From: a virus
DNA length: 43,373 bases
Virus record (IMG/VR): IMGVR_UViG_3300008459_000104
Coordinates: 1 to 43,373 of that record
Direction: 5' to 3' (one strand)
Shown here: in pieces, positions 7,365-42,644 of the stretch
How positions within the stretch are numbered: position 1 is the stretch's first letter
How the letters are laid out: each line of letters begins with the position of its first letter
Made by a program: the position numbers and the translations under genes
The notes under the pieces: model-generated
The model's input: the letters and a program-made list of their open reading frames with translations, nothing else
What the model was told of the DNA's origin: nothing
Database searches by the model: none

Positions 7365-7367
7365 TGC
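7353..7367 (+). repeat. left arm of inverted repeat flanking the methyltransferase
   Basis: GTTATGTGTAGTTGC (7353-7367) is the reverse complement, with one mismatch in 15, of GCAATTACACATAAC at 8231-8245. The pair brackets the methyltransferase gene. Such short flanking repeats could be cassette or insertion ends. The integron core rule GTTRRRY is not strictly met, so I do not call attC. Confidence 0.5.
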
Positions 7368-7418
7368 GGTTTAATAGCAGAAAGCGATGGCAAAAATAAA
7401 TTTGAAAAATTTAAAAAT

Positions 7419-20141: not shown

Positions 20142-21512
20142 TTAAACGATACGATATTTCTGGAAGTGTTTAACAGCAAGACACTCCAAACCTTGTCCTG
20201 TTTCCCAGTCAGTATGCAATTGCATAGTTGAGCTTGTAGGGATTTCAGCCAAAGCACCTGTTCTCCACTCGGTGATAATACCGTTAGCTGATTTGTTAGC
20301 AGCGTTACCCATGAAAGGAGTAGGTGTGTGACGTATTTGCATACGAGGTTGACGGCCATTGTCAACAGTATCTACTTGGTCTTTTGGTACGAAGTACAAA
20401 GAACCATTTACGTCAGGGCGCAAAGTAGCAGAAAACAGTTGTGGATGATCGAAGATAGGAACATGGATGAAATCGAACTCATACCCGCCATAAGACAGAT
20501 GCTCTACATTCCAATCCAATGTCTTCCCATCAACCATAAGACGACGCGAGTCAACACTCGCAGAACCCAATTGCTTCAAGAACTTACTAAGAATACGATA
20601 AGCTTTAGAACCCATGAATACCATGTGGTCAGTAGGTGCTTTGTTAGCGATAAAGTTATCGATAATCTCATCTAGTTCTACAAAACCGAATGTTCCAAGT
20701 ACTGAAGCTTGATCAGCGATACCGTAAGTAGTTACATACCAGTCAAGACCACCAGTTGTTTGGATAGGCAAACCTGAGCTTGGATCAGCAAGGGCAGGAG
20801 AAGCATCGTTAAACAATGTGGTTGATTGAGTACCAGAAAGCATTTGCACGGAGATATCACCTTGCAATTTGATATACTTCTGTACTACTTGATAAGGGAG
20901 GATGTGATAGTCACCGCCTACATTAACCTCGATTTTCGCTACCTTCTGAATATCGGAAATCTCATCAACCTCACGGAAGATTTGAATCAAGTTGTAGTAC
21001 TTGGTCAAACCATAACGGCGGTTAGTAGGAGCATCTGATTTTTCAGCGAACACGTTAGATGAAGCAGAAACTTTATCACTCGTTGCGATAGTCAAAGATG
21101 TGCCATCAACAGATTTAGCTGTAATTAAAGCACTAGTAGTTGTAGGATAAGTGATTGTCTGGATGCGAGCTTGCTTACCAGGATTACCGCCTGTTGGCAA
21201 CCATGCAGAGTTTGAACAAGTCAACAAATCGCCTACACGGAAAAATCCGTAAGCAGAGTTAACTGTGAAAACAATTGTAACCGCACCGGTAGTAGTAACA
21301 GCAGAAACGTTACCAACCTCATAAACATCGTTATTAACGAAGTTATGGTAGTTAAACATTGTTGCTGGCTTGTAGCGATTTACCATTTTCATAATGTCGG
21401 TAAACGCTTTATCACGACTTTGGTCGTAGATGTTAGGGTCAATATCCCTTTGGTCGAGGAAGTCGATTGCTGATACAAACGACTTAATCATTGTACCTTG
21501 TGTAACTGGCAT
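20142..21512 (-). CDS. major capsid protein (candidate)
   Basis: 456 aa, a usual size for a phage MCP. It lies right after the scaffold candidate and before the decoration-like protein, the standard position. The sequence has an N-terminal helical arm (MPVTQGTMIKSFVSAIDFLD), many beta-type segments, and a conserved-looking C-terminal segment (GYEFDFIHVPIFDHPQLF ... RPDVNGSLYFVPKD). GC at third positions appears higher than in its neighbours, and I found no GGGAAG motif from 20529 to 22032, as expected for a strongly constrained, highly expressed gene. The assignment rests on position, length and composition, not on a motif. Confidence 0.75.
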   Translation of the reverse strand: MPVTQGTMIKSFVSAIDFLDQRDIDPNIYDQSRDKAFTDIMKMVNRYKPATMFNYHNFVNNDVYEVGNVSAVTTTGAVTIVFTVNSAYGFFRVGDLLTCSNSAWLPTGGNPGKQARIQTITYPTTTSALITAKSVDGTSLTIATSDKVSASSNVFAEKSDAPTNRRYGLTKYYNLIQIFREVDEISDIQKVAKIEVNVGGDYHILPYQVVQKYIKLQGDISVQMLSGTQSTTLFNDASPALADPSSGLPIQTTGGLDWYVTTYGIADQASVLGTFGFVELDEIIDNFIANKAPTDHMVFMGSKAYRILSKFLKQLGSASVDSRRLMVDGKTLDWNVEHLSYGGYEFDFIHVPIFDHPQLFSATLRPDVNGSLYFVPKDQVDTVDNGRQPRMQIRHTPTPFMGNAANKSANGIITEWRTGALAEIPTSSTMQLHTDWETGQGLECLAVKHFQKYRIV

Positions 21513-23128: not shown

Positions 23129-25474
23129 TTATCTTGTTTTTTGGTTAGCGATTTTTTGTTTTTCAATCATAGCATTACTTTGAAGTACATGAGAGTTAAC
23201 TTTTGAGCTTCCTGTTTCTTCTGCTACGGCTAATTTTGTTTGGCTATTCATCATCGCAATTCTCTCCATTGACTCTATTTTCATTCTCTCTTTCTCTAAT
23301 TCAGCTTCTAATTTCATTTGCTCTTTTCTCAACTCAAAGTCCATTTCCATTTGCCTTTGTTGAGTAGCCATCTGTTGAGTCATCATAGCTGATTGCTGTT
23401 GACCCTCATTGTTGGCTTGTATTTTAGCAAGTTCTTGTTGCTGTTGCTTTTCTTTAGCTTTCTTTACTCTATGCGCCCATATCATTTGAGCTTGCTTTAC
23501 GTTCTTGGTATTTACCAATAGAACGGCATCCGAAGTATCAAGCCATCCATTTTGGATATCCATTTGCATTTGTTGTAACAACCAAGCTTTTTGGTCATTG
23601 GTAGTACGCCTTTCAATCTCAATGCCATAATCCCTAAGAGCTATTTCCGGAGCTATCTCTATAAATCTTAACGTATTTGAATTTAAGGCAGGAGCATATC
23701 CCGATACGTTTGCGCCTTTCTTGATTCCTTGTTGCATCCTGCAAAGGCTATTCTCGGCTAACTGCAATGTAATTTGCTCTTCGGCATAAGACATTGGGTA
23801 TAGTGCATCTGCTGTTGATTGCTCTGCCATTTGATAGCCGGGAACAAGTGTCTTTGGGTTTGGATTTCCCGAAGTTACCTCATTATACCCCGTGATTCTT
23901 TCAATCATAGATATTGAATTAATCAAGTCATTGAAGAACATAGATAATTCGCCAGCTGCTGTATTCTCAATAGGTATTACGGGTTTCCAATTCGGGGATT
24001 GTGGCTCTCCGTTTTCTGTGGTACTTCTTCCCACCAGTACGCCTGTTTCAAAGAACATCTGCAAGAGTTCTTTTGGTTGCATATTTGAGCCACCTTTATT
24101 CAAGGCTACTTTCTCTAATGAGTCAAGGTCAATCCACCATCCAGAAGGTACTGCTCTATTTTTGAAGTTCTGTATCTTAAGTATTGTTAATTGATAATCA
24201 TCTATGTAGGGAATAAGTTTCTCCATAAATGACTGCGCTTTCATCTCGTAAAAATTATATGCGCAGAAAGAGTACGATAATCTTGTCTTTGCTTTTTTCT
24301 TAGGGTCGTTACTTCTCTTTTGATCATAAGACATACCCCAGTCGTAGCACTTATCTGTACCTACTATCCATTTGCACTTATACACATATTGTATTCTTTT
24401 ACGCTTGTACTTGTCTGACTTCTTCCCTCTATTATAATCTGCTTTTCTAAAATCAACATTTCCTTTTTCATCTGTTGATTCTCTATACACATTATCGTTA
24501 TAGGTAAAGAACTCAATATCTAAAACCTTACACTTAAATCTATCGTATGTTTTAAACCATCCCGTACCCTTACCTAGTTGAGCTGGATTGCCAAACTTAC
24601 CAGCTACGCTTCCTGCGAATTCTTGCATTTCTTCTTCGGTAAATAAAGCGTTACCATCTTGGTCTTTTATTGTAGCAAGTTCAACAAGGCTAACATCAAT
24701 GACTTCCCCGGCATGAATAATATCACTAAATGTTCCATTTTTGCAATAACTTGTAATAATGCACTCTGGATTTACCCTCCTAAAATAAACCTTATTATCA
24801 TCTCCAAGCCAATCCTTACATCCTGCAACGCCGTAATCGAATAAATCCTCAAATACAGACCTCCTATATGCTTTGTAATTATTCTCATAAAAAACTAAAT
24901 CTATTGCCATTTCAGCATCCTTGCTTCTTACAAATTGCTCATCCATTTCAAGTCGCATAGATAGTTCTTCTAAATCTGCTGGATCATTTGGGTTAAGCGA
25001 AAGAGCTGGGTGAGATGCTAATTCGGGATTCATTTTTTCTAATTGTTCCCTCATAATTAGCTTTACCTTCAAATCATTATAATAATCTTGCATCTCTGTG
25101 GTTGCAAGCATATCCACCGGGGTACACACGAACCCAAAATCATCTTTCATTAATCGACTAATAGCTTTATCTCTATATAGGGAAACTACTGCTCTATTAG
25201 TCCAGTCAACTGAAAGCCAAGTATGATTAGTTTGGGCATCTACGCCTAATAATTTTTTATACGGGGAAATCGGCTGTTTACCTAGGGCATACATTCTGAA
25301 CTTCTCATAATCGCCATTATTATTGGCGAAAACTCCTTTTGGATATGCGAAGGTAAAATCATAATAGGCAGCTTTTGCGTAAGCCATGCACCACTCTCTG
25401 CCTTTTTCCTTTGGATCGATATCGTGGGGAGGATATGGGTAAGATGAACCTAAGCCTATTTGTGTGTACCTCAT
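23129..25474 (-). CDS. portal protein (candidate)
   Basis: 781 aa, directly downstream of the large terminase gene in transcript order, the usual place for a portal. The body is mixed alpha/beta with many Tyr and Trp. The C-terminal 140 residues form a long glutamine-rich coiled coil (KEKQQQQELAKIQANNEGQQ, then ELRKEQMKLEAELEKERMKI) as in P22-like portal barrels. No single diagnostic motif is visible, so the call depends on synteny and architecture. It is separated from the terminase by 12 nt. Confidence 0.7.
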   Translation of the reverse strand: MRYTQIGLGSSYPYPPHDIDPKEKGREWCMAYAKAAYYDFTFAYPKGVFANNNGDYEKFRMYALGKQPISPYKKLLGVDAQTNHTWLSVDWTNRAVVSLYRDKAISRLMKDDFGFVCTPVDMLATTEMQDYYNDLKVKLIMREQLEKMNPELASHPALSLNPNDPADLEELSMRLEMDEQFVRSKDAEMAIDLVFYENNYKAYRRSVFEDLFDYGVAGCKDWLGDDNKVYFRRVNPECIITSYCKNGTFSDIIHAGEVIDVSLVELATIKDQDGNALFTEEEMQEFAGSVAGKFGNPAQLGKGTGWFKTYDRFKCKVLDIEFFTYNDNVYRESTDEKGNVDFRKADYNRGKKSDKYKRKRIQYVYKCKWIVGTDKCYDWGMSYDQKRSNDPKKKAKTRLSYSFCAYNFYEMKAQSFMEKLIPYIDDYQLTILKIQNFKNRAVPSGWWIDLDSLEKVALNKGGSNMQPKELLQMFFETGVLVGRSTTENGEPQSPNWKPVIPIENTAAGELSMFFNDLINSISMIERITGYNEVTSGNPNPKTLVPGYQMAEQSTADALYPMSYAEEQITLQLAENSLCRMQQGIKKGANVSGYAPALNSNTLRFIEIAPEIALRDYGIEIERRTTNDQKAWLLQQMQMDIQNGWLDTSDAVLLVNTKNVKQAQMIWAHRVKKAKEKQQQQELAKIQANNEGQQQSAMMTQQMATQQRQMEMDFELRKEQMKLEAELEKERMKIESMERIAMMNSQTKLAVAEETGSSKVNSHVLQSNAMIEKQKIANQKTR

Positions 25475-25486
25475 TTATTTAAAATT

Positions 25487-27562
25487 TTATACAGCTATTA
25501 AATATGGTAGAATATGTTCTACGTTTTTATTTGTTTCTTGTTTTATTAATCTTTTTTGCTTTGCTGCTATCAGGGAAAATCCGCTTGCCATAGATTCATC
25601 ATACTTCTGCGTATTCCCTACATCAAAGCCAAGCCATCCACTTTCGCTTTCAAGCAATGATTTGAAATATACCTTTTGGATATTCTTTTCTATATATGCT
25701 TCCGTGAAGTCGCATATTTGCTGTAGCGTTTTGCCTTGGCCATCCGTGTATATTCCTGGCTCTACTTCCCCAGATAGCCATATTAAAAAGCCACCACATT
25801 TTTTGCTGTTAAAATACTTTTTCCACCCATCTACGTTTCTTTCAAATAGAACTTGGCAACCGCAATACCACGCCATTTTTAATACTGCATCGTATTGCAA
25901 ATCAGTCGTTAACGGGCGGTCAACGTATTTTAACACAAACATATCATTAAATTCCGAATTTTCATCAGCTGGATCTTCTAATTGATAGGCAAAAGCTGCA
26001 CAATTTGACCTTCTACTGTCTTTTGTCTTATCGTATTTAAAAGGGTCGCATCCTATTCTTATGGCATATTTGGAATTAGGGAAGAAGTACCCATTTCTTT
26101 CGTAAGCATTATTAGGCTCTTTAGGCTCCCATCCCTTAACTTTTTCGAACTTTCCATTAGGGTGAGGAACCCAGATAACCTTACTAAGATTAATACCAAC
26201 CATTTCCCCATTTACCCCTAATTTATCACTATACAATTCATCTCCATTTTCCCAGATTAAATTACCTTTTTCTGTAAGTTCATTATATGATAAAAAGTCA
26301 AGTTGTTGATTTATCTTTACACTATTATACAGGGAAGATGTAGTGGCGGATTGGAACATTTCCTTCTCATCGAAAGGGTTCATACGAATTTCCTCCTCAA
26401 GCAAAGACCCATCCAGTCCAACTCTTTTAGCCAAGAGATAATTTTTAGCCCCCATCCGCACATCTTCCTCTGTTATATCACCCATACCTACGAAATTCTC
26501 TACAAGGTAATTATACTGATCTTCTGTTGGCTCATCAATAACAGACATTCCGTACTTATCTATAAAACCAAGAAACCCGTCATAAGCTGGAGTAAAATAC
26601 CTAACAAGTCTATTAGGTGTTCTGCCTTTTGTTGGATCAGCCAAATCCCATAACTTCTTAAATTCAGATCCTCCCCCTTTTGTTAATTCATTTACTGTTG
26701 AAGGAGCCTCAAGAAATCCAACCCTTTTAGTACCCTTTACCAATGTTTTAGATACAATAGATATAAATTCAGAAAAGGGAACTTCTGGGGGGAATTTACC
26801 TCCCTCATCAAACAAACCTCTTGTTAATCTACCCGAATCGTACGCATTTTTTGTTGGGGCGCGATAGTCCACTTTGCTTCTGTGTCCGGTGTCACTATCT
26901 ATTGCCTTGCCTACTGAATTTTTAACATCAACAGATTTATGAGCAAATACAAGTTCAGATACGGAATCTTTATTGTTAAGTTGCTTTGGCTTCATAAATA
27001 CGGGAAGTTGTCGGTACCCAAATGCAACCATATTAGTGAACGCTGCTTTTGCATCCGTTTGCGTTTTACTCGTTAAACCGCAAATACTATTTTTGTAGAA
27101 TATGCACTCATACACAAGGTTAGATGTGCCTATTGACGTTTGACCTTGTCTACGCTTTTTGCCTATCATTACGCCCAAGCACCAAGGAATATTTTCCCAA
27201 TAGTTAAGATAAAGAAAATACCTCCTATCTAAATCCCTATAATCTGGATAAATATCATCTTCTAATTTCCACCATTGTAGATAGAAGTAGTTCTTGCCTG
27301 TTATATAAGTGGGTATTCCGTTATTCAAAAACCAAAAACCTTCCTTGCATCTTTTCACTTCTTCCCTTGCATAATCCCTTTGCTTACTATCTAACAAGGC
27401 ATCTCCTTCTTTATTGTACTCTACTTGCTCAAAGTAATTAGGCAAATCCCTTCTTCTCCAATATTGTTCTATTGGGTTGCCAGTTCCCCAATTTTCTATT
27501 TCCTCAATATGAGGTTGTTCGGGAAGTTCTATATCTACACCATATATGAGCAATTTACTCAT
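25487..27562 (-). CDS. terL: terminase large subunit
   Basis: The ATPase half has a Walker A-like GKKRRQGQTSIG at 134-145, consistent with the diverged P-loops of terminases, and a Walker B-like LFDEGG at 250-255, with a candidate coupling motif further on. The nuclease half starts about residue 500 (IRIGCDPFKYD, with D506 a candidate metal ligand). The length of 691 aa is at the upper end of the family. It shares one base with the stop of the ferritin gene upstream (27562) and precedes the portal, so it packages DNA into the head with it. No small terminase is recognised. Confidence 0.8.
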   Translation of the reverse strand: MSKLLIYGVDIELPEQPHIEEIENWGTGNPIEQYWRRRDLPNYFEQVEYNKEGDALLDSKQRDYAREEVKRCKEGFWFLNNGIPTYITGKNYFYLQWWKLEDDIYPDYRDLDRRYFLYLNYWENIPWCLGVMIGKKRRQGQTSIGTSNLVYECIFYKNSICGLTSKTQTDAKAAFTNMVAFGYRQLPVFMKPKQLNNKDSVSELVFAHKSVDVKNSVGKAIDSDTGHRSKVDYRAPTKNAYDSGRLTRGLFDEGGKFPPEVPFSEFISIVSKTLVKGTKRVGFLEAPSTVNELTKGGGSEFKKLWDLADPTKGRTPNRLVRYFTPAYDGFLGFIDKYGMSVIDEPTEDQYNYLVENFVGMGDITEEDVRMGAKNYLLAKRVGLDGSLLEEEIRMNPFDEKEMFQSATTSSLYNSVKINQQLDFLSYNELTEKGNLIWENGDELYSDKLGVNGEMVGINLSKVIWVPHPNGKFEKVKGWEPKEPNNAYERNGYFFPNSKYAIRIGCDPFKYDKTKDSRRSNCAAFAYQLEDPADENSEFNDMFVLKYVDRPLTTDLQYDAVLKMAWYCGCQVLFERNVDGWKKYFNSKKCGGFLIWLSGEVEPGIYTDGQGKTLQQICDFTEAYIEKNIQKVYFKSLLESESGWLGFDVGNTQKYDESMASGFSLIAAKQKRLIKQETNKNVEHILPYLIAV

Positions 27563-28062
27563 TAAGCTAATTTATTTAATTTATGGTCAATCACCATACA
27601 GATATTTGTATTGTCTTTCTCGCTTTCAAACATGGAAATAATATCTCCATAAAATCCAACAGCTTCCCTTTGAGTATCAAGAAAGAAGTTTAAGTGAGTA
27701 GCTACTTCTGGATATTCCATAACTTCTTCTTTGTACATTTCTCTATAGTATTCTAATAATTCAAGTTCATTATCATAAGCCATTTCAATAGCTTTGTATA
27801 GGGAAGATATAACGCTATCTTTTTGCGGAGCAAGAATAGGTAGCTTAGCTAACACACCTTCATCATTTAAGAAATCTACATGCTTCTGATAGTGTGTTTC
27901 TTCTTCCCCGCTTTCAGCCAGAAAGTACGCTTGCGCACCAAAATATCCTAACATCTGACATTTGTTTGCCAAAAGTTTATACATATAAAAATGAGTAAGT
28001 TCCCATTCTAATGCTTTTTCAAATGACTTAATGCAATCTGCATTTAATAGTGGTTTTTTCAT
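27562..28062 (-). CDS. ferritin with intact ferroxidase centre
   Basis: 166 aa, the length of bacterial ferritins, and a four-helix layout. The ferroxidase ligands align by spacing with human H-ferritin E27, Y34, E62, H65, E107 and Q141: E21, Y28 (7 apart), E54-x-x-H57, E93 and Q131 in LDTQREAVGFYGD. The core motif GYFGAQAYFLAESGEEETHY matches the family. The protein should oxidise Fe2+ and may assemble a 24-mer iron store. It is translationally coupled to the terminase and sits amid virion genes, which is odd for a metabolic gene; iron storage, oxidative protection or virion incorporation are all possible. Confidence 0.85.
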   Translation of the reverse strand: MKKPLLNADCIKSFEKALEWELTHFYMYKLLANKCQMLGYFGAQAYFLAESGEEETHYQKHVDFLNDEGVLAKLPILAPQKDSVISSLYKAIEMAYDNELELLEYYREMYKEEVMEYPEVATHLNFFLDTQREAVGFYGDIISMFESEKDNTNICMVIDHKLNKLA

Positions 28063-28084: not shown

Positions 28085-28399
28085 TTATTTCCTTGATTCT
28101 GCTATTGTTTCTACAAAAGGCTTTTTCTCTACATCTTTCTTTTCATCTCCAGTCACTCCCGCGTATTCCCCTAATGACTTTAACGCAAGTGCTATGTTCC
28201 CAGCATCCGACCAAATAACTTTCAATCTTTCGAATGTTTTATCCTTCGGATCATCAATAGATAAGGAAGCCAAATCTACCCTATTCATTAGGTCGGCCAT
28301 TTCATTCATCTTTTTATTTAATGAATAATATAGTTTAGCCGACCCATTTTGTTCGTACTTTTTTAATCTATCCTCTAATTCTTGTATTTTTTTGTCCAT
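28085..28399 (-). CDS. coiled-coil protein (104 aa), head-module accessory
   Basis: The M at 28399 is preferred over the upstream ATG at 28441, because the latter lies inside the preceding giant gene, while 28399 is 2 nt from its stop. The protein starts MDKKIQELEDRLKKYEQNGS and is helical and charged throughout, ending KKDVEKKPFVETIAESRK. No family is recognised. It sits between the giant virion protein and the ferritin. Confidence 0.6.
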   Translation of the reverse strand: MDKKIQELEDRLKKYEQNGSAKLYYSLNKKMNEMADLMNRVDLASLSIDDPKDKTFERLKVIWSDAGNIALALKSLGEYAGVTGDEKKDVEKKPFVETIAESRK

Positions 28400-28400
28400 T

Positions 28401-31400
28401 TTATTTATATTCCTTAACAATAATCTTTTCTTCTTCTTCAAAACCCATATCTAATTTTGCTTTTTTCATTGACTCTTCTTTTAAATCATTTATTTTATTT
28501 GAAAGTTTTTCCTTATCCAAGTCTTTACCTTTTACGGCACTTTCACCTACGATATATCCATTTTCCATTTTTTGAACTGCATAATCAGTACCCAAGATAT
28601 CTTTTATAGATTTATGTTGAATCAAATTACCCCTTTTGCTATACGTATAAAATCCCTCTTTCATGTATTTTTTGGTAAGCTCAACAAAGATATCAAATTC
28701 TTCATCAGTCATTAAGCCATCTGGGTGCTTTATATCTACTTGTACTTTATATTGTTCTTTCTTTCTAATAGCTGGAACGATATCTTTTTCAAGCAAAATT
28801 TTCATTTCTGGAGAATTAAATTCGGATTCCTCAAAAAGAGCTTTTGGCTTAGAATAATCTCTACTATCTTTTACAGTTATACCCATGAATGTGGGTATCG
28901 CATCTCCATACAAAACAGAATATCCATCTTTATCTATTTGCTTAGATATTTGGGAAATCGCCATTGGCATTTTAAATCTTTCAGCTTCGGATGATAAGCT
29001 TGTTTCTTTCCCCGTATAATCTTTTCCTACAGCTAAATTGACTACAGCTCCACTTACAGGTGGCATTTTCCCTCTCATAAAATGAAGAGCTTCAGCTCCT
29101 CTATCTTTAAAACCGCTATACTTTTGATACTTACCGGTCAATTTGCTTACTTCCCCGCCAGATATTAATTGAAATAATGTAGCTACATATTTTGAAAATC
29201 CCCCTGTAAAATTATAGCTCTTACCATTGGGAAGTTCTATGTCCATAAAATCATCATCATAAGGATTTGTATTTAACTTACCGCCTCTTGCGGATGCGAA
29301 AAGATAACTACCCGCAACAATACTTGTAGCAAATTTAGCCAAATCAGCCGCAGCGTATAGTTGTTGCCTTGACAATACTTTACCTTTCTCCCCGAGGCTT
29401 CTATAATACCCTTTTTCTACCAATGGAGTAAATGATGCAAGATCAGATATGAAAAGTATATTTAGCTTTGAAGCCATAAGACGTGGAGACCAAACTGCAA
29501 GATTAACTATATCAGATTTAAACGCTTTGCTTGGATCTGAAGCCGATGTCATTGCGTTTATTCTTGTAGCTAATGCCTTGAATTGTTCTGGATTTTTTTC
29601 AAATGTCAATCCTTTTTCGTACATCTTTTCAGTTTCTGTTCTGAATTTTATTACACGAAGAGAATTACCTAAGCTTGTAAATGCTCTTTCAAAAGGCTTT
29701 AGTACATCAAATAGCTCATACTTTTTCCCACCCATGTTCAACCACCCATATTCTTTCCCATTAAGTTTTATTATTGCTTTAAATCTTGTAGGGAAGAACT
29801 CATCTTTAGCTTTCTCAAGCAATGATTCTGGTTCGTAAATACTAAGACCGCTATCTCTCATTATGTAATAATCTGGCGATTCATGCAATTCGGCTAATCT
29901 TCTTTCAAATGCCTTTTCTGACCAAAAATCAATTATATGATTTTTCATTGCCTTTGCTCCTATAACTGGATTTCTAACTGATTGCATCCAATTCTGAACC
30001 CCTACAGCAGAATCGTCTATCCCTGCAAAAAACGCTTTTAATGTACCTCTTGCTTTTAATAATACTTGCTTGAACTTATCAACTTTACTCATAGATTTCA
30101 TTTCTTCTTCTATAAGCTTTCTATTAAATTCAAGTTCCGCTTTTTCTTTAGCTATTCTGCTATCTAATAACTCCTTGTATAATTGCGGATATTTTCTTTT
30201 GAATTCGGGAGATTCATAAACCGATTGCCTTTTTTCTTGTGGCTCAAAATCTCCTTTATCTAATCTTTCTTTTAATTCTTGTTCTTTTCTTTTGTTCGCT
30301 TCAATAGCTTTTTTAATTCTTGCCTCTTCAGAATATTTGCCAAGTCCAGCTTCTTTTCTTTTCGCTTCTAATTCATTCCTTAATTGTTTTTGTTTTTCTC
30401 TTAATGAATCTAATTCTGGGCTTTTTAATTTTTCAGCCTTTTGTACATCTAATTCATTTTTTGATAATTTTTCTTCTAAATCCTTTATATTTTCTTCGGC
30501 AGCTTTTGTTGCTCTTTCTATTCTTGCCTCTTCAGAATATTCATCAAGCCCACCCTTTTTTTTGACTTCATTTATTTGTCTGCGTAGCGATGCTAATTCT
30601 TGATTTTTTTCTATTCTTTGTTGTTCTGTTTTAGGTTCTCTAGCTAATACTCTATCTAATTCATTAAGTAATTTAGCTTCAGATCTAATTTGATTTATAT
30701 TGGCCTGTAATTCAGATTTAGTTTCTTTTCTTTCCGAATACTTCCCAGCAATTACATCTCTAATATCTTTTTCCGTTATACCATCAAAGATATCTTTTAC
30801 ATCATCAAGTGTTCTTTTTGTTACTTCAACTAATTTTGCTCCAACTTCTTCTACATGGCTTTTAGCTATACCAGAAATTATCTTTGCCATATCAACAGAA
30901 ATTGCAAAATTTTCGGCTCCACCATCAGAAGATAACCCTAGCTTATTAGCGTTATTTTTGTATTTCTGTACAGCATCTCTTAATTTTTGTTTAAGGTTTT
31001 CCCTTTCGGCTTTAAAATCCCTTTTGCCTTCTGTGGTGTATACCTTGCCCTGTATTTTCTCTTTCTTTTGTCTTAATAGTTCATTTTGAGCTTTTATTTC
31101 TGCGAGCTTAGTTTCAGCTTCTTCGTATTTCTTTCTGTATTCTTCTTTTGCTGTTTGTATATTTTCAAAATCTTTTTTTGTTTCAGCTATCTGAGATTCT
31201 GTTAATTCATCAACTTTTAATGATTCCATTTTAGCCACAAAGAAATCAGATATATTTTCAAGTGGGTTAGATACGCCTTGAAGCGATCTTAAAGATTGAC
31301 CTATTTTGGCGCTTGCCTTTTCCCTAGCTTGAATAAATCTCTTATAGGCATTTATATTTTCGTTTGATGGATTACGTTTAACTTCACTATCAAGTGTTGC

Positions 31401-34400
31401 TGCAAATATTCTTGATATTTCATTTTCTACTGGACTTAACATATCGCCCTTATCCATTTTATCAATAAGCTTATTTACATTGTAGCCTTTTGATATTTCC
31501 TCTTGAGCCTTTGCCCTCCATTGTTCTACTGATTCTGGATTAGCTTGTCTTTCTGGCATACCTATTTCTGCTCTTCTTTCTGCATTATCTTCCATTCTTA
31601 TGCCTCTCAATTCGCCTTCTCCTATTTTCATTTCGGGAAGTCGTTCTGTTGGCGGTTTCTCTCCTACATTTTCCCTATAATATTCCGAGAATCCTTTTTC
31701 AATAGCATCTCTATTTTCTTCTCCTTGAGCTTTAATTAGCTGTTTAACTGCTACTTTTACTGCTTGGGAAAACTCGACACCCTTATCCATTAACTTACCC
31801 ATTGTAACAACAGCATCAGCTAGCATATCTCTTAATTGTTCTGGAGATAATCCACCACCTCTTTTGGTTATATCTTTGTCAAGTGTTTGTAGCCATTTGG
31901 GAAGTTCTGTGGCTTTAATCTTGTCGGCTATTTTTGTGGCTTCTTGCTCAAATTTTCCTGGCTCTTTTTTTGCTCTTGGTTTTTTGGGTTGCTCGGCGGG
32001 AAGTTCTCGCTCTGCGGGTTCAGCAAGCTTAATGGGTTCTGCTGGCTTTGGCTCAACTCTTGAAGGCTTTTCAGATATTGGCTCTGGCTTTGGTTCTTCT
32101 TTTGCAAGTGCCTCTTCAGTGCTTCTTGGACTAACTTCGGGTTTTTTACTTTCATCATATTCGGTTTTAAATACTTCTTTGATTCCTTCTTTTTTACTAC
32201 CGCCTTTTACTGCTTCTTCAAACATTGTAGCGGGTCTGTCATTTACATTTTCTGCATATTTCCCAAATTGGGAAGATATTTCTTTCTGCGACTTAGATGT
32301 TTCTAGTATCTCGGCTATTTTTATGGCAGTAGGGGAATACTTTTCTCTCGGTGTCAATCCGTTATTAAACATATCGGATTGAGATAACCAACCCTCAAAA
32401 GAACCAGCCTTGCTTGCGCCAAAATCATTCAATGCAAGTATAGCTTCTTGTATTTCGGGAGTAATGCTTTTTTCTGCTGAAGTAGAGAATATGTATGGTA
32501 ATGCTTTCCTTAATCCTTCCTTTTGTGTATGAGATAAATTTTCATATAGTTCGGGAAGTGCTACATCACCGCCATCAAATAAGAATTGCTGAACTACCAA
32601 TTCAAGGTCTTTAATGCCGGCATCAGTAAGTTCGTTATTCTTAAATATTGTATTTCGTTGAGATTGATTAAGATAAGGGTCTAAATACTCCATCAGCCTT
32701 TTAATATTTGACCTTATGGCTTGATTGAGTGTTTCTTCCCCTTTAAACAATATATCAGCTATTCTGCCTTTTGTATTGAATGGCATTCTTCTTGTGATAG
32801 CTACAGGATCTAATCTACGTTTACCACCCGTTTCTAAATCCTTAACATCATAGTTGCCAAGTTCGATAGCTCCTTGATCGCTTGTTTTGACTTCCCTAAC
32901 AAGAACAGGCTCTTTCATGCCATCTACTTGTTCTTTGCTAAATCCAAATTGTTCAGCATTTTCAGAAAGAGATTGCTTGTATGACTTATTCCCTCTTTGA
33001 TATCCTTTTCTTAATCCCGCTGATCTGTTATTCCCTTGTATGACTTCCCCTCTTTCATTTACTACTGGCGCACCACCATAAGCTCCTGTATTTTCTCCTA
33101 ATTCATTGAAACGAGGGTTATTGGCAAAGCTTTCTTCTGCTTGTAAAGTACCTATATCGTTTCTATTTTTGGGCTGTGCTTCGGGAATAAAATGCAGAGG
33201 GTTTCTTATCCCATCTTGATGGGATGGCTGTAGGGTTTCCGCTTCTACTAATTTATATTTGAAGGGAACAACTACTCCCCCACCGCCCGGCTCACTTGTA
33301 AATCTAACTTCTCCACCTTTTTCAGATGCAACACCACCTCCTTTTTCATTTCTTTTGAACTCTATACCATCCTTAACAAACTTGCCTTCTTTTCTTCTTT
33401 TCTCTGCTTCCCCACTTAATAATAGGTCAGTTTCTCTTGTTTGTTCTTGTTCTAAAACGGAAGCGGTTGTTTCTGCTTTTCCATCGCTAACTCGTTCAGC
33501 ACTTGGTTGTACTCTTGTTTCAGCTTTTTGTTCTTTGGGAACTTCTGGAGTAGGTTGTACAGCTCCACTAACTTCTTCTCTAATTGGTTTTGTTGGTTCA
33601 TTTGCCCACTTATTTATTTGATCATATTTTCCCGCTTGAGAATCTGGCTTTAAGCCGATATAATCCTCAACAACTTGCATTAACCTATTTACACCTGCAT
33701 TACTTTTAGATGTTTTCTCTCCTGTTAATGTTTCTATTATGAATCTTCTTGTTTCTGCATTTGCATCTCCAGATAAAATACCTACTCTACCTTTTACTTG
33801 CTTTATTATGTCTTTTACTTTTTTAATTTCGGGAAGTTCTACAAATTGATTTTTTGTTTCTGCGGTTGTTTCTTTGAGGGATTGTTCTACTGCTTTTACA
33901 AGTTCGGGATTTGAACCATCTGCTTTTGCTTTGTGGTATGCTTCGGCAATATTTTTTGAATATTGATTTTTATATGCCTCATAAGTTGATTGCTTGTCAT
34001 ATTCAATAACAACAATATCTGTGTTTTTTGGTATGTAGCCTTCTTTTGTTATATATCCGTTGCGACCTTCTATTATCCCTTCTTCTGGCAGAATGTAAAT
34101 AATATCGCCTTTTTTATTGCCATACTTTCTATCAATTACATTTCTCGGTTCCCCTCCTTCACTAATTGGCAACGCATTTACATTAACCCCTTTTCTTAAC
34201 CCATTTTGTAGTATGGAATTTTTATTAGCTTCCCATTTAGATTCTCTTTTGCCTATTAAATCCTTATGTTGTGCAACATATTTTTTATCAAATTGACTTT
34301 TACTTAATGGAGTATTTAATTCGTTTTTTGTTTTGTTTTCTCCCAACGCCTTAGCCGTAGCTTCCACATCTCCCCCTACACCAACACTTGGCTTTTCTTC

Positions 34401-36869
34401 TGCTTGGGGAAGTTCTGATGGTTTCACTTCTTCAGCCACTACTTCTTCTATTTTTCTTGATTCAGCCAAAGCCTTTTCTCTAGCAGATGAATCAAATTCT
34501 CCTAATCTACGAGTAGCATTTTCATAATCGGTTGCTAATTGTATTAAATTATCGGGAACATCTTCCACATCTACAATTTCCCCTCTTTTATTTGTTATAA
34601 TAATTTCATTATCATAATCTGTATCTATACTTAAATCATTATTTTCAAATTCCCTTTCTACTTCTGCCATCTTATCTGTAATAGGCTTCATCTGCCTAAT
34701 TACCTCTGTTTGCTCTATAGCTTCTACTTGCCCTTCTAATTTAGATGATCCATCGTATTTTTCGTAATAAGCATTTGTATCTCTTGGTGCGTTCCATTCG
34801 TTTTTTGGGTCTGTTATAAAATCTTGGAACTTTTTCCCTTCTTCTGCATTAGCAAATAGCTTAGATGTTTTTTGTCCTGTTTGTGGGTCTGTGTATTCTA
34901 CTCTGTAAACTTTTTCTCCTTCTTTAACTTGGGGAAGTTGTGGCTCTGTTTCTTTTTCTACTTCTGATAGTTTTTCCCCTACAACATTAACTTCATGCGC
35001 AAATGGATCATTACTTTCTGTAATCTTTTTTATTTGCTCATCTAACGCATCTATTTGTTGTTTATACGCTTCTACTTGTGTAGGATCTTTAGATGCCATT
35101 TCGTTCATTAACCTATCTCTCTTTTGGATAAGTCCGGCTACAGATACTTGAGTATCGGGGGTTAGCCCCTCTGACGTTTTCCCTAAAGCATCATTGAATT
35201 CAAGTATATCAGCCATTACCCTTTCGGTTGATCCTTGAGGGATATTGCCTATTACTTCATTATTCCTTAATGTTTGAGCTAATTCTGCTGGATTTTCTTT
35301 AGATAAAGCACCCTTAAATGTAGATTTTATTATTCCGGGAAGTCGTGGGGAAGTAGAAAGTGCGTGTAAAATAGTACCGACTTTCGCATTTTCTACAAAT
35401 GAATTTGCAAGATTATCTATAATCTGCTCTCTTGATAATTTCAATTTACTATCCCCAAGACCAGCCCCTATTTCTTTTCCAGCTTCCGTTGTTGATATAA
35501 TCGCACCCATTTTAACGCCACTCTTTACAGCTTCCCCAACATACGTTTTTGGTAATTTTGATGCACTTTTTAAAGTGCTTTTCATGTATTTACCGATTAC
35601 ATTCTTTGACTCATTTGAAAGCATCTTCTTCCCTATACCCTCTGTTAATGCTCCGCCTGCTCCCATGAAAGCCATATTGGTTATACCTCCAGCTATTTCC
35701 CCGGCCAATAATCCCTTTTCCGCTTCTTTCATAGCCTCTATGTCGGGAAGTTGTGGGTTGCGTTCTTTTAGCAATTGATATCTCCTAATTACCTCATCTC
35801 TTCCCCCTTGATTAACCATATCTCCTACCGTAGCTGCAAAACCACCAGTAGCAGTAGCTGTAGCAGCTAATAAGGCGGGAATACCAGCCAAAGATGCTCC
35901 CCCTGTTACGGGAGCTGCTGCAACAAGAGCTGCACCAGTCAAGCCACCAAGAGTAGCTTTAGCCATAAACGGCGCAACCCCGCCCACTAATTGTCCTGTT
36001 GCTCCAGCAAATTCTGTTGGGACTTCCCCTACATATCCTTCTGGGCTAATCCTTGCTTCTGCTTTTCTATTTGCATATTCTACCCTTTGTTCGGTAGTCA
36101 TTTTATTTACAAACTCATCTGCTTCTTCTTCGTTTCTTACTGCTTCTTTACCGCTATTCCATAATGATTCCCAAAATCCAGTAGTTTGAGCTAATACAGG
36201 CTCTCCTGTAATTGGATTTTTAGAAACTATAGCATCTCCATCATCAATAGCTTGTTGTACTTTTTTCTTTTCTGATTGATATAGCGGAGAATTCTTTGCT
36301 GCCTTTACCCCTTTATTTTTTAATCTCCTATCAACAGTATTGTCTATCGCAACATCTTTCGTTGCTCTAGATTGCTCTACTTGCTTTATAGCTTGTTCTG
36401 TTATTGGCTTTACTACTCTTGTAGCATCTGACTTTGTATTGAATAAGCCAGAATTTATAGTTTTCTCAAAATCAAACTCTTTTTTTTGAGGAATTGGTTT
36501 TATTGGTTGTTGGGGAAGTTCTGGCTTGTAAAATGAAACGAAGCTTTCCTTGCTACCTCGTAAATTTTGGGGAGTGTACCCATCTGCTATAAGTGCATCA
36601 TATATCTTCCCCGCTTTCACAGGATCGGATATTCTTTTATTAAATTCTTCTTCTAAACCTAAGTTTTTTACTGTATATCCTTCATTAAGAAGTGAATTGT
36701 ATAGCTTACTGCTTTTAGATGGCTTTGGTTTGCCATCTGTTGGCTCTTGCTCTGGTTGTTCCATTTCTGTTTCAGTTACCTGCTCAATAACTTGTTCGGG
36801 AACATCTTGCTCTGCTTGAGCTTGTGGCTCAACGACAGATTCTTCTTGCGATACTATTTCTTCTGCCAT
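28401..36869 (-). CDS. giant polyvalent virion protein with DdrB/ParB-like domain
   Basis: 2822 aa in one uninterrupted frame. In order: an N-terminal pair of about 30-residue repeats (LYNSLLNEGYTVKNLGLEEE / IYDALIADGYTPQNLRGSKE, residues 50-115); a long Gly/Ala-rich, membrane-like segment (280-410); a region at about 850-975 of unknown fold; a DdrB/ParB-like domain at about 1200-1485 (KYKLVEAETLQPSH ... GNNRSAGLRKGY); Pro/Glu-rich linkers; coiled coils with two copies of a 68-aa repeat (2100-2200); and a C-terminal domain with a hydrophobic stretch. This is the architecture of phage polyvalent proteins (Iyer and Aravind), thought to be packaged and injected with the DNA. I see no polymerase motif. 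Confidence 0.75.
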   Translation of the reverse strand: MAEEIVSQEESVVEPQAQAEQDVPEQVIEQVTETEMEQPEQEPTDGKPKPSKSSKLYNSLLNEGYTVKNLGLEEEFNKRISDPVKAGKIYDALIADGYTPQNLRGSKESFVSFYKPELPQQPIKPIPQKKEFDFEKTINSGLFNTKSDATRVVKPITEQAIKQVEQSRATKDVAIDNTVDRRLKNKGVKAAKNSPLYQSEKKKVQQAIDDGDAIVSKNPITGEPVLAQTTGFWESLWNSGKEAVRNEEEADEFVNKMTTEQRVEYANRKAEARISPEGYVGEVPTEFAGATGQLVGGVAPFMAKATLGGLTGAALVAAAPVTGGASLAGIPALLAATATATGGFAATVGDMVNQGGRDEVIRRYQLLKERNPQLPDIEAMKEAEKGLLAGEIAGGITNMAFMGAGGALTEGIGKKMLSNESKNVIGKYMKSTLKSASKLPKTYVGEAVKSGVKMGAIISTTEAGKEIGAGLGDSKLKLSREQIIDNLANSFVENAKVGTILHALSTSPRLPGIIKSTFKGALSKENPAELAQTLRNNEVIGNIPQGSTERVMADILEFNDALGKTSEGLTPDTQVSVAGLIQKRDRLMNEMASKDPTQVEAYKQQIDALDEQIKKITESNDPFAHEVNVVGEKLSEVEKETEPQLPQVKEGEKVYRVEYTDPQTGQKTSKLFANAEEGKKFQDFITDPKNEWNAPRDTNAYYEKYDGSSKLEGQVEAIEQTEVIRQMKPITDKMAEVEREFENNDLSIDTDYDNEIIITNKRGEIVDVEDVPDNLIQLATDYENATRRLGEFDSSAREKALAESRKIEEVVAEEVKPSELPQAEEKPSVGVGGDVEATAKALGENKTKNELNTPLSKSQFDKKYVAQHKDLIGKRESKWEANKNSILQNGLRKGVNVNALPISEGGEPRNVIDRKYGNKKGDIIYILPEEGIIEGRNGYITKEGYIPKNTDIVVIEYDKQSTYEAYKNQYSKNIAEAYHKAKADGSNPELVKAVEQSLKETTAETKNQFVELPEIKKVKDIIKQVKGRVGILSGDANAETRRFIIETLTGEKTSKSNAGVNRLMQVVEDYIGLKPDSQAGKYDQINKWANEPTKPIREEVSGAVQPTPEVPKEQKAETRVQPSAERVSDGKAETTASVLEQEQTRETDLLLSGEAEKRRKEGKFVKDGIEFKRNEKGGGVASEKGGEVRFTSEPGGGGVVVPFKYKLVEAETLQPSHQDGIRNPLHFIPEAQPKNRNDIGTLQAEESFANNPRFNELGENTGAYGGAPVVNERGEVIQGNNRSAGLRKGYQRGNKSYKQSLSENAEQFGFSKEQVDGMKEPVLVREVKTSDQGAIELGNYDVKDLETGGKRRLDPVAITRRMPFNTKGRIADILFKGEETLNQAIRSNIKRLMEYLDPYLNQSQRNTIFKNNELTDAGIKDLELVVQQFLFDGGDVALPELYENLSHTQKEGLRKALPYIFSTSAEKSITPEIQEAILALNDFGASKAGSFEGWLSQSDMFNNGLTPREKYSPTAIKIAEILETSKSQKEISSQFGKYAENVNDRPATMFEEAVKGGSKKEGIKEVFKTEYDESKKPEVSPRSTEEALAKEEPKPEPISEKPSRVEPKPAEPIKLAEPAERELPAEQPKKPRAKKEPGKFEQEATKIADKIKATELPKWLQTLDKDITKRGGGLSPEQLRDMLADAVVTMGKLMDKGVEFSQAVKVAVKQLIKAQGEENRDAIEKGFSEYYRENVGEKPPTERLPEMKIGEGELRGIRMEDNAERRAEIGMPERQANPESVEQWRAKAQEEISKGYNVNKLIDKMDKGDMLSPVENEISRIFAATLDSEVKRNPSNENINAYKRFIQAREKASAKIGQSLRSLQGVSNPLENISDFFVAKMESLKVDELTESQIAETKKDFENIQTAKEEYRKKYEEAETKLAEIKAQNELLRQKKEKIQGKVYTTEGKRDFKAERENLKQKLRDAVQKYKNNANKLGLSSDGGAENFAISVDMAKIISGIAKSHVEEVGAKLVEVTKRTLDDVKDIFDGITEKDIRDVIAGKYSERKETKSELQANINQIRSEAKLLNELDRVLAREPKTEQQRIEKNQELASLRRQINEVKKKGGLDEYSEEARIERATKAAEENIKDLEEKLSKNELDVQKAEKLKSPELDSLREKQKQLRNELEAKRKEAGLGKYSEEARIKKAIEANKRKEQELKERLDKGDFEPQEKRQSVYESPEFKRKYPQLYKELLDSRIAKEKAELEFNRKLIEEEMKSMSKVDKFKQVLLKARGTLKAFFAGIDDSAVGVQNWMQSVRNPVIGAKAMKNHIIDFWSEKAFERRLAELHESPDYYIMRDSGLSIYEPESLLEKAKDEFFPTRFKAIIKLNGKEYGWLNMGGKKYELFDVLKPFERAFTSLGNSLRVIKFRTETEKMYEKGLTFEKNPEQFKALATRINAMTSASDPSKAFKSDIVNLAVWSPRLMASKLNILFISDLASFTPLVEKGYYRSLGEKGKVLSRQQLYAAADLAKFATSIVAGSYLFASARGGKLNTNPYDDDFMDIELPNGKSYNFTGGFSKYVATLFQLISGGEVSKLTGKYQKYSGFKDRGAEALHFMRGKMPPVSGAVVNLAVGKDYTGKETSLSSEAERFKMPMAISQISKQIDKDGYSVLYGDAIPTFMGITVKDSRDYSKPKALFEESEFNSPEMKILLEKDIVPAIRKKEQYKVQVDIKHPDGLMTDEEFDIFVELTKKYMKEGFYTYSKRGNLIQHKSIKDILGTDYAVQKMENGYIVGESAVKGKDLDKEKLSNKINDLKEESMKKAKLDMGFEEEEKIIVKEYK
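30316..30541 (-). repeat. 22-nt exact repeats inside the giant protein gene
   Basis: The 22-nt sequences at 30316-30337 and 30520-30541 are identical and 204 nt apart (68 codons, in frame). Together with the flanking similarity they mark a tandem duplication of a coiled-coil module (EYSEEARIERATKAAEENIK and KYSEEARIKKAIEANKRKEQ). Confidence 0.7.
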
Positions 36870-39122: not shown

Positions 39123-42100
39123 TTATGTAGTGTGTCCATTTGAAATATCATATCCGATATCTACAAATTTTAATTCTGTTGGAGTGCCTAGATTTTTAGC
39201 TGGATCAAACTCTAGCATTATCTTCATGGCCGTGTTTCTCATTTTCTCAAATGTAAGAAGGCCATCTGTAGTATATCCTGTATTTGTTGGTACTATTTTG
39301 TTTCTATATAGGGGAGCATAATACACTCCTTCAAATTCTCTATAATCTGTATCTACTAGATCTGATGTTTGTAAATAAGGGAAGTCGTTATAGAAATAAG
39401 TAAATGTTGGCTTTACGTTTGCTTGAACAGTTATATTGTTATATACCTTCTGTCTTGTTGGATTTTCGTTAGAAACAAACATTATTTTTGAAGGGAAAAC
39501 GTCATAGTAAAACCTATTGTATTCATAAGTTTGGTTATGTTGCCACAAATTCCCTGACTTATTTGCGTAAAGATTATTGCCTATTGTTGTAAATAATTCC
39601 GGATTAAAAGAGTACGACCCTTGCCAATGTGGTTGTGGCTGAATACCCTCCAAGCAGTACACTATTGTTTTCCCTTGGCCATCCCACATATCAAATGGGT
39701 AGGGGAAGTCGTAATCGGGAACTGCCTTTATCGGTACATCGGTCAATTTAGGTATGGATATCAATAGTTCAAGATGATTGTTATCTACAGCCGTAAAAAT
39801 ATAAGGTCTTCCCCCTAAAGCTTCAATTTCAGCCTTAGTCATACTTAAATACTGCTTAAAGAAAGATTTCCAAAACCTTGTTGTTTTATAATTGGATATA
39901 GGGAACAAGCCATTTGAAGAATACTGAACCCAAACGCCTTTATTTGCGTCTGGATAAAATACTTGCCCTCTAAATTCCACAACCGCTTCTGGATTTGATG
40001 TACCAAAACTTCCCTTCAATGTATTTATCGTACCAATTACATTTGTAGAGCCACTAAAAAATTGGGTAGCCCCTGTGCTATCGGCAATTTGAGTTTCTCC
40101 CAAGTATAAAGAATTAGTTTCATTAGCGCATATAGCTAACATTACCATACCCTGACCAGCATCTTGAACCTTAGAAGTAAATATCAATTTATTAATTGAC
40201 CCACTCTCATCAGCAACAAAAGCTCTACTGCCTATTCTAAATGTACTTGTTCCATTAATTTGAGTACCAGTAGTTATTACATCACTCCAAGATATAGCTG
40301 TCGTGTTTTCTACTTGGCCTATGTTTGTTATAAAATTTAATTTACCAGCATCGCTATCCCACCTTTTGTAAAACGCATCATTTGGACACATGGTGTTACC
40401 CAAGTAAGATGTATTTGTTCCTCCCACTATATCCCTTTGTATTAAATATGTATCTGGGATAAGCACACCCGATGTGATTGAATATTGCCTATTTGGCTGA
40501 CCCGAATTAGTTACGTTGTAAATTTCGCCAACCTCATAATATGGCTCTTGGTCTGAAACTTTATATGGCGTATATAATTCGTAAATAAAAGCATATTCAG
40601 ACGATATACCTATATTTTGTGATTGCAGTATTACGTATTCGCCTTGTTGGCCAATTATGGGCAATACCCAAAATTGACTTTGATACCCGCCTATACCATT
40701 AGGAATTTTTCTTGTCAATATGCAATAATCGCCTTCTGAATAAACATATCCTAAGCTTGATTGAAAAAGAAATTTTGTTGATATAGCTATTCCTACTGTG
40801 CTTGCAGAAAATACGGTATTTGTAAAAACAAACTCTCCATTCGGGTTTCTTTCGGCATATTTAGTTTGACCTACATCAGATATTCCCTGCACAAAAAATC
40901 TTGTTCTCAAATTCAATGTCCTAACAACAGAGTAATAAGAAGCCCATTCTGGTATTTCATCTACAGCATTAGTATTACTCAAAGACCAAGATATCCCATT
41001 AGATGGATCGAAAGATGTTGGATTAAGGCCAACAACAGATGGGCTATAGTCAAATGTCCTATATTTAGTAGATAAAACAGAGCTTGATCTAAGTACCCCT
41101 GATTTCCTCATAGCATAATCATAAAAAACTATGCCTATATTGTATTGTGATATTTGAGGGAAAATATTAATCCCAGAAAGTGTAACGCCACTAATTTGAA
41201 CAGTATTTGGATTCCATAAAACTAAGCTACTAGTATCGGCATTACCAGCATTGCCATATTGAGCATAAAGAACCTCATTTGCCCTAGTCAACAATTGGGA
41301 AGTCAAATTGCCTATATAAATTAGGCTGCTAAATGGAACAGATGTTGGCGCTGCTGGTATTGGATTTGGAACTCCATTTGGAGTTGTATATTCCGCTGTT
41401 GTAATCAAAAAATACCCTGTTTGATTATTTATGCTCATATACGCATAATAAGCAAAATATCCAGGGAGTGGCAATCCAATTGAATTAAAAGCACTAAACC
41501 CGTATAAGGGTACAGTTTGCGGTGATGAATTTACTTGAATAGTTGAAAATTGACCAGTTAACGATGTTTGCAGGGGTGTATCATATCCTTCCGTATTATT
41601 CCCAAGAAACTGCCTATACTTTGCAATTTCCATTGCTTGGGAATATATAGGCACATTGTCAAATGGTCTTAATACATCATCTGGAGATATTTTAGATCCA
41701 AGATTATTATTATAAAAATAATAAGTCAAAGGAGTTCTATTACCCAAAACATCAACAACATTGTGATTTTGTATAGCTGCTAAGTCAGATGGGTTTTCTT
41801 TATTCCATTTTCTTATAACAAAAGCATCATTACCTCCAGTATTTGTACCATCGCTTATTCTACAAACAAGATTTACGACCTTTACTGTGTTAGGTATAAT
41901 TTCAGCCAAGTCCATTTGAGTATCAATATAATTGAACTCTTCTGTTGCGAAATTCAATCTACTACCTTGACTATACAATCCTATAACCGAAACTTCCCCA
42001 TCATAATACACATATTGATATGCAAATTGGAATGATTGATTGGCTATAAAATTTCCAATAAATTGACTATCTGTTTTTTTTGTGAAATTTGGGGAAAATA

Positions 42101-42644
42101 TAGATGGCCTTTTTATTAAAGTTATTTCGCTAAAATTTAAAGGCAATGAATAAGGTTGCGCATCGGTATCAAAAAATGACTGATATGACTTTATGCCGGA
42201 ATCTATATTTATCTTTCTTGGCTCATTATTATAGCCATCTACCCAAGAGAGTAGATTAGATACTATAGCAGAGCTATGTATGGGTTCTTTTGTGAAATTT
42301 AATCCTCCAATTACATCATTGGACTCTAATACCGTATAAACTACATTGTTCCCGACGTAACAACACTCTATCTTGTGATTCCCTGTTGGGGAATAGTAAA
42401 ATGTTATAAATCTTTGATTTTCTTCATCAGCACATGAACCTATGGCTATAAATTCCTCGTTGTGCTGTTTTACTAGGGAAGTCGCACCTATGCTTTCTAC
42501 TGTACCAATAACGCCCCCTATGTCGGTAGTGCCTGTTCTGAAATTCTCCATATTAACCCAAGCGTTCTTGGGAACAGCGAAATCCGCACTATCCGAATCA
42601 AGATAGCTATCTTGAGATACAAAATATTTTTTTTCCGATTGCAT
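39123..42644 (-). CDS. tail hub/nozzle candidate (1173 aa)
   Basis: This long beta-rich protein starts with a compact motif (VPKNAWVNMENFRTGTTDIG then GVIGTVESIGATS) as in T7 gp12 / P22 gp10-type tail tube and nozzle proteins. Tyr, Asn, Gly and Ser dominate throughout, with no coiled coil. It lies between the ejection-type proteins and the GroES-like gene. The large size suggests an extended beta-propeller or appended domains. The start overlaps the GroES-like stop (TAATG at 42644), so it is coupled to it. Confidence rests on N-terminal pattern and context. Confidence 0.5.
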   Translation of the reverse strand: MQSEKKYFVSQDSYLDSDSADFAVPKNAWVNMENFRTGTTDIGGVIGTVESIGATSLVKQHNEEFIAIGSCADEENQRFITFYYSPTGNHKIECCYVGNNVVYTVLESNDVIGGLNFTKEPIHSSAIVSNLLSWVDGYNNEPRKINIDSGIKSYQSFFDTDAQPYSLPLNFSEITLIKRPSIFSPNFTKKTDSQFIGNFIANQSFQFAYQYVYYDGEVSVIGLYSQGSRLNFATEEFNYIDTQMDLAEIIPNTVKVVNLVCRISDGTNTGGNDAFVIRKWNKENPSDLAAIQNHNVVDVLGNRTPLTYYFYNNNLGSKISPDDVLRPFDNVPIYSQAMEIAKYRQFLGNNTEGYDTPLQTSLTGQFSTIQVNSSPQTVPLYGFSAFNSIGLPLPGYFAYYAYMSINNQTGYFLITTAEYTTPNGVPNPIPAAPTSVPFSSLIYIGNLTSQLLTRANEVLYAQYGNAGNADTSSLVLWNPNTVQISGVTLSGINIFPQISQYNIGIVFYDYAMRKSGVLRSSSVLSTKYRTFDYSPSVVGLNPTSFDPSNGISWSLSNTNAVDEIPEWASYYSVVRTLNLRTRFFVQGISDVGQTKYAERNPNGEFVFTNTVFSASTVGIAISTKFLFQSSLGYVYSEGDYCILTRKIPNGIGGYQSQFWVLPIIGQQGEYVILQSQNIGISSEYAFIYELYTPYKVSDQEPYYEVGEIYNVTNSGQPNRQYSITSGVLIPDTYLIQRDIVGGTNTSYLGNTMCPNDAFYKRWDSDAGKLNFITNIGQVENTTAISWSDVITTGTQINGTSTFRIGSRAFVADESGSINKLIFTSKVQDAGQGMVMLAICANETNSLYLGETQIADSTGATQFFSGSTNVIGTINTLKGSFGTSNPEAVVEFRGQVFYPDANKGVWVQYSSNGLFPISNYKTTRFWKSFFKQYLSMTKAEIEALGGRPYIFTAVDNNHLELLISIPKLTDVPIKAVPDYDFPYPFDMWDGQGKTIVYCLEGIQPQPHWQGSYSFNPELFTTIGNNLYANKSGNLWQHNQTYEYNRFYYDVFPSKIMFVSNENPTRQKVYNNITVQANVKPTFTYFYNDFPYLQTSDLVDTDYREFEGVYYAPLYRNKIVPTNTGYTTDGLLTFEKMRNTAMKIMLEFDPAKNLGTPTELKFVDIGYDISNGHTT

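Follow-up and report, generated by a model that had tools for sequence, protein, structure and literature searches.

A viral ferritin gene that runs directly into the gene for the large terminase subunit (TerL) raises the question of where its product acts: in the virus particle, in the infected cell, or nowhere in particular, as a host gene captured by chance. The initial annotation of this locus had proposed iron homeostasis or oxidative protection during infection, or a part of the virion, and had pointed to the Ferrojan Horse hypothesis. The window, that is, the whole stretch of 43,373 nucleotides analysed here, encodes the following features.

27562..28062, minus strand: ferritin gene, 166 aa, ATG start, H-type ferroxidase centre E21/E54/H57 and E99/Q131, with Y28
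25487..27562, minus strand: TerL, PHROG 6681 (E=9e-91), its ATG overlapping the ferritin stop by one base
28085..28441, minus strand: 118-aa conserved protein, called from a TTG at 28441, an internal ATG being the likelier start
28401..36869, minus strand: 2822-aa polyvalent protein with a DdrB-like ParB domain at residues 1200-1328 (Pfam PF18763, E=8.4e-27)
23129..25474, minus strand: portal protein, PHROG 6547 (E=1e-60)
20142..21512, minus strand: major capsid protein (MCP), SU10-like, Pfam PF17236 (E=5.5e-15)
39123..42644, minus strand: muzzle-like virion protein, Pfam PF25729 crAss_MUZ_C (E=3e-7)
2676-3122: RadC-like protein
4577-5236: DNA-ligase-like fragment
7356-8231: N6/N4 DNA methylase
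8925-9929: calcineurin-like phosphoesterase

The ferritin gene and its junction with the terminase gene

The open reading frame that had been reported at 27562-28062 exists, with the correction that it is read on the minus strand (28062→27562); a plus-strand reading of the same interval was rejected because stops occur throughout. The reported one-base overlap with the terminase gene was seen in the junction sequence, GCTTAATGAGT, where the TAA of the ferritin gene and the ATG of TerL have a single A in common at position 27562 (TAATG). In the direction of transcription, the gene order is muzzle-like protein, 219 aa, 509 aa, 2822-aa polyvalent protein, 118 aa, ferritin, TerL, portal, 129 aa, 375 aa and MCP. 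The 118-aa protein has no Pfam match, and almost every relative encodes it ahead of TerL; by position, it is probably the small terminase subunit (TerS).

The window gene is a bona fide ferritin. Its product matches the Pfam model PF00210 (Ferritin) with E=1.2e-8 and 35.4 bits against a cut-off of 24.5, as do all 35 members of sequence set A2 at E <= 0.01, and a phmmer comparison with E. coli FtnA (EcFtnA) gave E=1.6e-6. It also matches PHROG 16594 (E=1e-4), an entry that carries no annotation. With 28.6 bits against a cut-off of 178 for the FtnA equivalog model NCBIfam NF007638, the protein is a ferritin, yet no FtnA equivalog. The rubrerythrin model PF02915 is likewise missed (17.2 against 22.8 bits). 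From Dps it departs in having a fifth helix, which Dps lacks, and ferroxidase ligands within the subunit, where Dps places them at the interface between subunits. Homology together with ligand invariance excludes a chance resemblance.

Fold and ferroxidase centre

The initial annotation had made its reading depend on a four-helix bundle with clustered metal ligands. An AlphaFold2 model built from a 35-row alignment gave such a bundle with high confidence (pLDDT 93.7), composed of four long helices (H8-38, H41-67, H88-113, H118-147) and a short fifth, the E-helix (H154-165), an architecture that, like the chain length, is that of classical ferritins (about 165-175 aa). In a Foldseek search, the best PDB match was E. 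coli FtnA, with TM values of 0.90/0.91 at 23% identity. The model describes the monomer only, and the clustering of ligands was judged by alignment.

By scanning IMG/VR with protein and alignment queries, 143 ferritin-bearing loci were collected, corresponding to 84 distinct sequences with the window counted. In the alignment, EcFtnA residues E17, Y24, E50, H53 and Q127 correspond to E21, Y28, E54, H57 and Q131 of the window protein, so that most of the ferroxidase centre described in the initial annotation stands. The exception is E93: the equivalent of EcFtnA E94 is E99, and E93 was rejected as a ligand, position 93 being Q, Y, A, D, K or L in 14 of the 84 sequences. Residues E21, E54, H57 and E99 are invariant in 84/84, and Q131 in every sequence that reaches it (one is truncated earlier), which leaves the five metal ligands unchanged across a family spanning down to 30% identity. 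Position 28 is Y in 77 sequences and W in 7. In one family member, L064, helix B carries a deletion, which may mark a broken gene copy or a mistake in assembly.

The acidic residues E126, E129 and E130 of EcFtnA have no consistent acidic counterpart in the viral family, where positions 130, 133 and 134 are mostly I or T, T or K, and S or A, respectively; S or A at position 134 is also found in the one eukaryotic ferritin that was aligned to the family. With E130 replaced by S/A and the site-C acids lost, the centre is of the H-type, or H-type-like, without the bacterial site C. In the overall explanation that we consider somewhat the better bet, the gene would encode a catalytically competent, H-type-like enzyme from a virus-specific subfamily, which would assemble into a 24-mer.

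A virus-specific ferritin branch under purifying selection

When 84,980 bacterial and archaeal species were scanned with family motifs as seeds, two contigs only were returned, both from Burkholderiales-type metagenome-assembled genomes (MAGs). In one of these (G041), the sole Pfam ferritin match is the viral-type gene, located on a 6.4-kb contig. When the family profile was run against 399 Pseudomonadota genomes, cellular ferritins scored at most 81 bits, in comparison with about 175-280 bits (maximum 281) for the main viral clade and about 90 bits for the divergent ferritins of loci L072-L077. A maximum-likelihood tree of 64 rows, built without Bacteroidota, archaeal or eukaryotic ferritins, separates viral from cellular sequences with support of 100/99 and places the window ferritin in a separate virus-specific branch. 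The only row labelled cellular on the viral side is L218, the other of the two MAG contigs, which had been found with a viral query.

The gene is under purifying selection. Between the window and locus L009, dN was 0.156 and dS 1.9, giving a dN/dS of about 0.08, a rough value as dS is close to saturation; the dN of the ferritin equals that of TerL (0.158) in the same comparison.

Among the INPHARED phages, no convincing homologue from a cultured phage was found. The record MT838721.1 (L067), labelled Bacteriophage sp., was rejected as a phage member, since it is a bacterial-chromosome-like fragment with a cellular ferritin; its reading frames include what we take to be Hsp20-like, aldolase-like and phosphoglycerate-mutase-like proteins. 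Matches in Staphylococcus phages, with 33% identity to a cellular-type ferritin, are suspected to be host-DNA contamination. Elemovirus and Cellulophaga relatives identified through TerL gave no protein match to the ferritin; in the elemovirus L008, a gene annotated GroES lies directly upstream of TerL. Scattered viral ferritin annotations are present in BFVD. Three BFVD entries from uncultured phages (A0A6J7WIS1, A0A6J7WVS4 and A0A6J5N5R9) gave weak structural matches to Dps-like parts of longer proteins named prohead protease or Dps, and possibly represent ferritin-superfamily domains fused into head proteins.

Conservation among close relatives

According to the initial annotation, absence of the gene from close relatives would mark it as a chance capture. 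The relatives were ordered by TerL identity. The arrangement of the window, with ferritin adjoining TerL, is kept in L070, L071 and L002 (TerL 78-81%). The ferritin of the six relatives at 69-72%, L072-L077, is of a divergent type, although its ligands are intact. Its gene precedes TerL by one or two genes and is found beyond the TerS-like 118-aa homologue, upstream of that gene (e.g., L072:7977-8477); it may represent a second acquisition, possibly a non-orthologous replacement of one ferritin by another, or fast divergence. No ferritin is present in the 69-kb record of L079 (TerL 67%). In L081, L101 and L103 (TerL 50-52%) the ferritin follows the portal gene, and the records of most other TerL relatives, including L078, L082 and all those below 50% identity, hold no ferritin, many of them being fragments. 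Where a giant gene precedes TerL, 11 of 16 TerL relatives have a ferritin, and where none does, 0 of 14 (p = 9e-5, phylogeny ignored).

That a host ferritin was captured recently and by chance, or that the gene is a contaminant, is therefore a most improbable explanation. Its one point in favour is the absence from some relatives, and the deep viral clade, the conserved synteny and the dN/dS of about 0.08 speak against it, as do the relatives that keep the gene.

Placement among head and polyvalent genes

In every fully flanked locus (n=59), the ferritin gene lies inside the morphogenesis block, in slots that vary: between the TerS-like gene and TerL, between portal and scaffold-MCP, between a MuF-like gene and a protease (in a myovirus) and, most commonly, beside polyvalent-type proteins of 900 aa or more. 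Such a giant gene directly adjoins the ferritin in 53 of the 59 loci, and in 44 the ferritin lies between two of them. As background, 66 of 338 other small genes of the same loci (20%) adjoin a gene of this size, which corresponds to a Fisher p of about 1e-25, a value that ignores the kinship of the loci and thus overstates their independence. The gap to the neighbouring gene is within 30 bp upstream of the ferritin in 59/59 loci and downstream in 56/59. Domains detected in the giant neighbours comprise DdrB-ParB in the window and ART-PolyVal, Zeta toxin, LPD39 and a weak RelA/SpoT match in other loci; some giants have no Pfam match, and for these the term polyvalent reflects size and synteny.

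Among the six loci that have no directly adjacent giant gene, the window, L070 and L071 have one a single gene away. The order portal-ferritin-scaffold-MCP is found in L063/L178, L101 and L103, and in L028 a GroES-like protein precedes the ferritin and a virion structural protein follows it. L215, a myovirus that encodes a tail sheath, has a MuF-like minor head protein immediately before the ferritin, and further on a head protease, an MCP-like protein and the sheath. The ferritin thus recurs in morphogenesis modules of dozens of unrelated uncultured phages, podoviruses as well as a myovirus. The ferritin-terminase synteny for which a search had been proposed holds in the nearest relatives of the window, where it is local; the partner conserved family-wide is the giant polyvalent-type gene, in place of the terminase.

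Two further observations concern genes around these blocks. A conserved gene at L055:12330-12971, with counterparts in cluster c5 (13 loci), matches PHROG 3704 (named ferredoxin, E=4e-86), is convergent with the polyvalent-ferritin-polyvalent block and has no Pfam domain. At L028:7117-7980, the gene for the protein with the GroES-like C-terminus overlaps the start of the ferritin gene.

Proposed role of the ferritin

For phage-type polyvalent proteins, packaging in the head has been inferred, and the processed DdrB of phage P1, the prototype of the domain, is packaged there (Iyer et al. 2017, PMC5512222). Synteny beside giants of this head-packed type suggests that the ferritin serves the virus particle and does not represent a stray host gene. 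From the genes and their order, the explanation that we hold to be somewhat more likely than not is a late-expressed, head-associated H-type ferritin, probably packaged. The protein would be expressed late, within the head and packaging operon, and would enter the phage head, or assemble with it, alongside internal proteins of the polyvalent and MuF type. At the di-iron centre, Fe(II) would be oxidised with O2 or H2O2, and the protein would store the Fe(III). Fenton chemistry could in this way be kept off the packaged genome and the injected proteins, or be held down in the newly infected cell; the antioxidant or iron-sequestering purpose is inferred. A more specific version, in which several tailed-phage lineages carry the ferritin inside an HK97-type head and deliver it together with polyvalent effectors, is put forward more tentatively. 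An assembled ferritin 24-mer, 12 nm across, is too wide for the tail channel, so ejection would require its disassembly.

Late-operon position indicates co-expression and does not prove packaging. The main rival explanation is a late-expressed ferritin outside the virion, an auxiliary metabolic gene that would sequester Fe(II) and remove peroxide in the infected cell while virions are assembled. Such a protein would differ from the head-associated one just in its location, the operon position reflecting timing and dosage only. We regard it as possible, with less conviction: the same gene evidence fits it, tight co-transcription with TerL does not require packaging, and the Dps and Mn-catalase genes of gut Bacteroides phages have been interpreted likewise (PMC8008677). 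A generic metabolic gene would, however, be expected sometimes in variable or early regions, and this one recurs instead in podovirus and myovirus head modules, beside proteins of the internal or injected type. Head packaging has its own difficulties, in that a search of these loci for fusions between ferritin and a virion protein found none and that the polyvalent-bearing L078, L079, L082 and L084 have no ferritin in their fragmentary records. Of the two roles first proposed, the data are compatible with iron homeostasis or oxidative protection, and a place in the virion is favoured, with head modules and polyvalent neighbours in its support and nothing pointing to the tail.

An unlikely alternative would make the ferritin fold a scaffold, adaptor or cage of the virion, with iron chemistry secondary. 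The slots between TerS-like gene and TerL, portal and MCP, and MuF and protease would suit an assembly factor, and conserved non-ligand residues, among them N33, Q36, G39, Y58, Q59, N66, D67 and D140, suggest an interface that may be conserved. A structural role would not, however, demand that all five metal ligands stay invariant throughout the family, and many relatives with the same type of TerL do without the gene, which is thus inessential for assembly. Less likely still is the Ferrojan Horse, in which an iron-loaded tail ferritin aids adsorption via iron receptors. The hypothesis exists in the literature, and in the Vi01-like phage Sajous1 a protein called ferritin by Phyre2 (gp217) was detected by mass spectrometry; in an experiment on Vi01-like phages, however, infection did not require TonB or FeoB (PMC10892097). 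The link drawn in the initial annotation finds no support here, as the gene is placed with head and packaging genes and has no consistently linked tail or receptor-binding neighbour.

Comparison with known systems

Phage Dps and Mn-catalase and the Phyre2-predicted ferritin of Vi01-like phages were known already; judged against the open-access literature, the novelty lies in a clade of classical ferritins tied to head and polyvalent genes. In that literature, we found no report of such a virus-specific clade, nor of a ferritin located in phage heads. Discussion of particle-borne iron and of the control of oxidative damage by phages has so far mostly lacked a dedicated protein, and the family supplies a concrete, testable candidate. 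If packaged, it would suggest that phages carry protection of their own genome against Fenton chemistry.

The closest cellular structure, E. coli FtnA (PDB 9bye/1eum), shares its five-helix fold with the window protein from end to end (TM 0.90), and its A-site E/E/H, B-site E, Y24 and Q127 all have equivalents. At about 23% identity, the two differ in FtnA E130, which is S/A in the phage protein, in the unconserved site-C residues E126/E129, and in the phage-specific invariant residues and head-module context of the viral family. The best PDB profile matches, at 64-67 bits, were eukaryotic H-type ferritins (e.g., 6lbd) and the archaeal AfFtn (3kx9/1s3q). The aligned eukaryotic ferritin and the phage ferritins have the Q131...S/A134 and GD139-140 pattern in common, and the phage protein nests with none of the cellular groups in the tree, which was built without eukaryotic and archaeal sequences.

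Ferritin-superfamily enzymes also occur in the genomes of Gratiaviridae and Lactobacillus phages, where Dps and Mn-catalase have been read as conferring tolerance to oxidative stress; they belong to the Dps and catalase families, with no classical ferritin among them and no link to polyvalent or head genes reported in the portion of the source considered (PMC8008677). The polyvalent proteins themselves (P1 DdrB, ART-PolyVal) are direct neighbours in most loci and carry domains of the injected-effector type, whereas the ferritin is small and encoded on its own; the paper describing the polyvalent proteins never uses the word ferritin (PMC5512222).

The closest functional parallel is offered by encapsulins, HK97-fold shells inferred to derive from HK97-type phages and loaded with ferritin-like (Flp) cargo (PMC8346489), in which an enzyme of the ferritin superfamily is likewise paired with an HK97-fold shell. 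Encapsulin Flp forms decamers and needs the shell for iron storage, whereas the phage protein is a full-length five-helix ferritin encoded beside a phage head operon and presumably packaged. If it is indeed packaged, phage heads would be linked to encapsulins as HK97-type shells with ferritin-like enzymes, and the phage ferritin would be a counterpart of the ferritin-loaded encapsulins and possibly a model for the origin of such shells.
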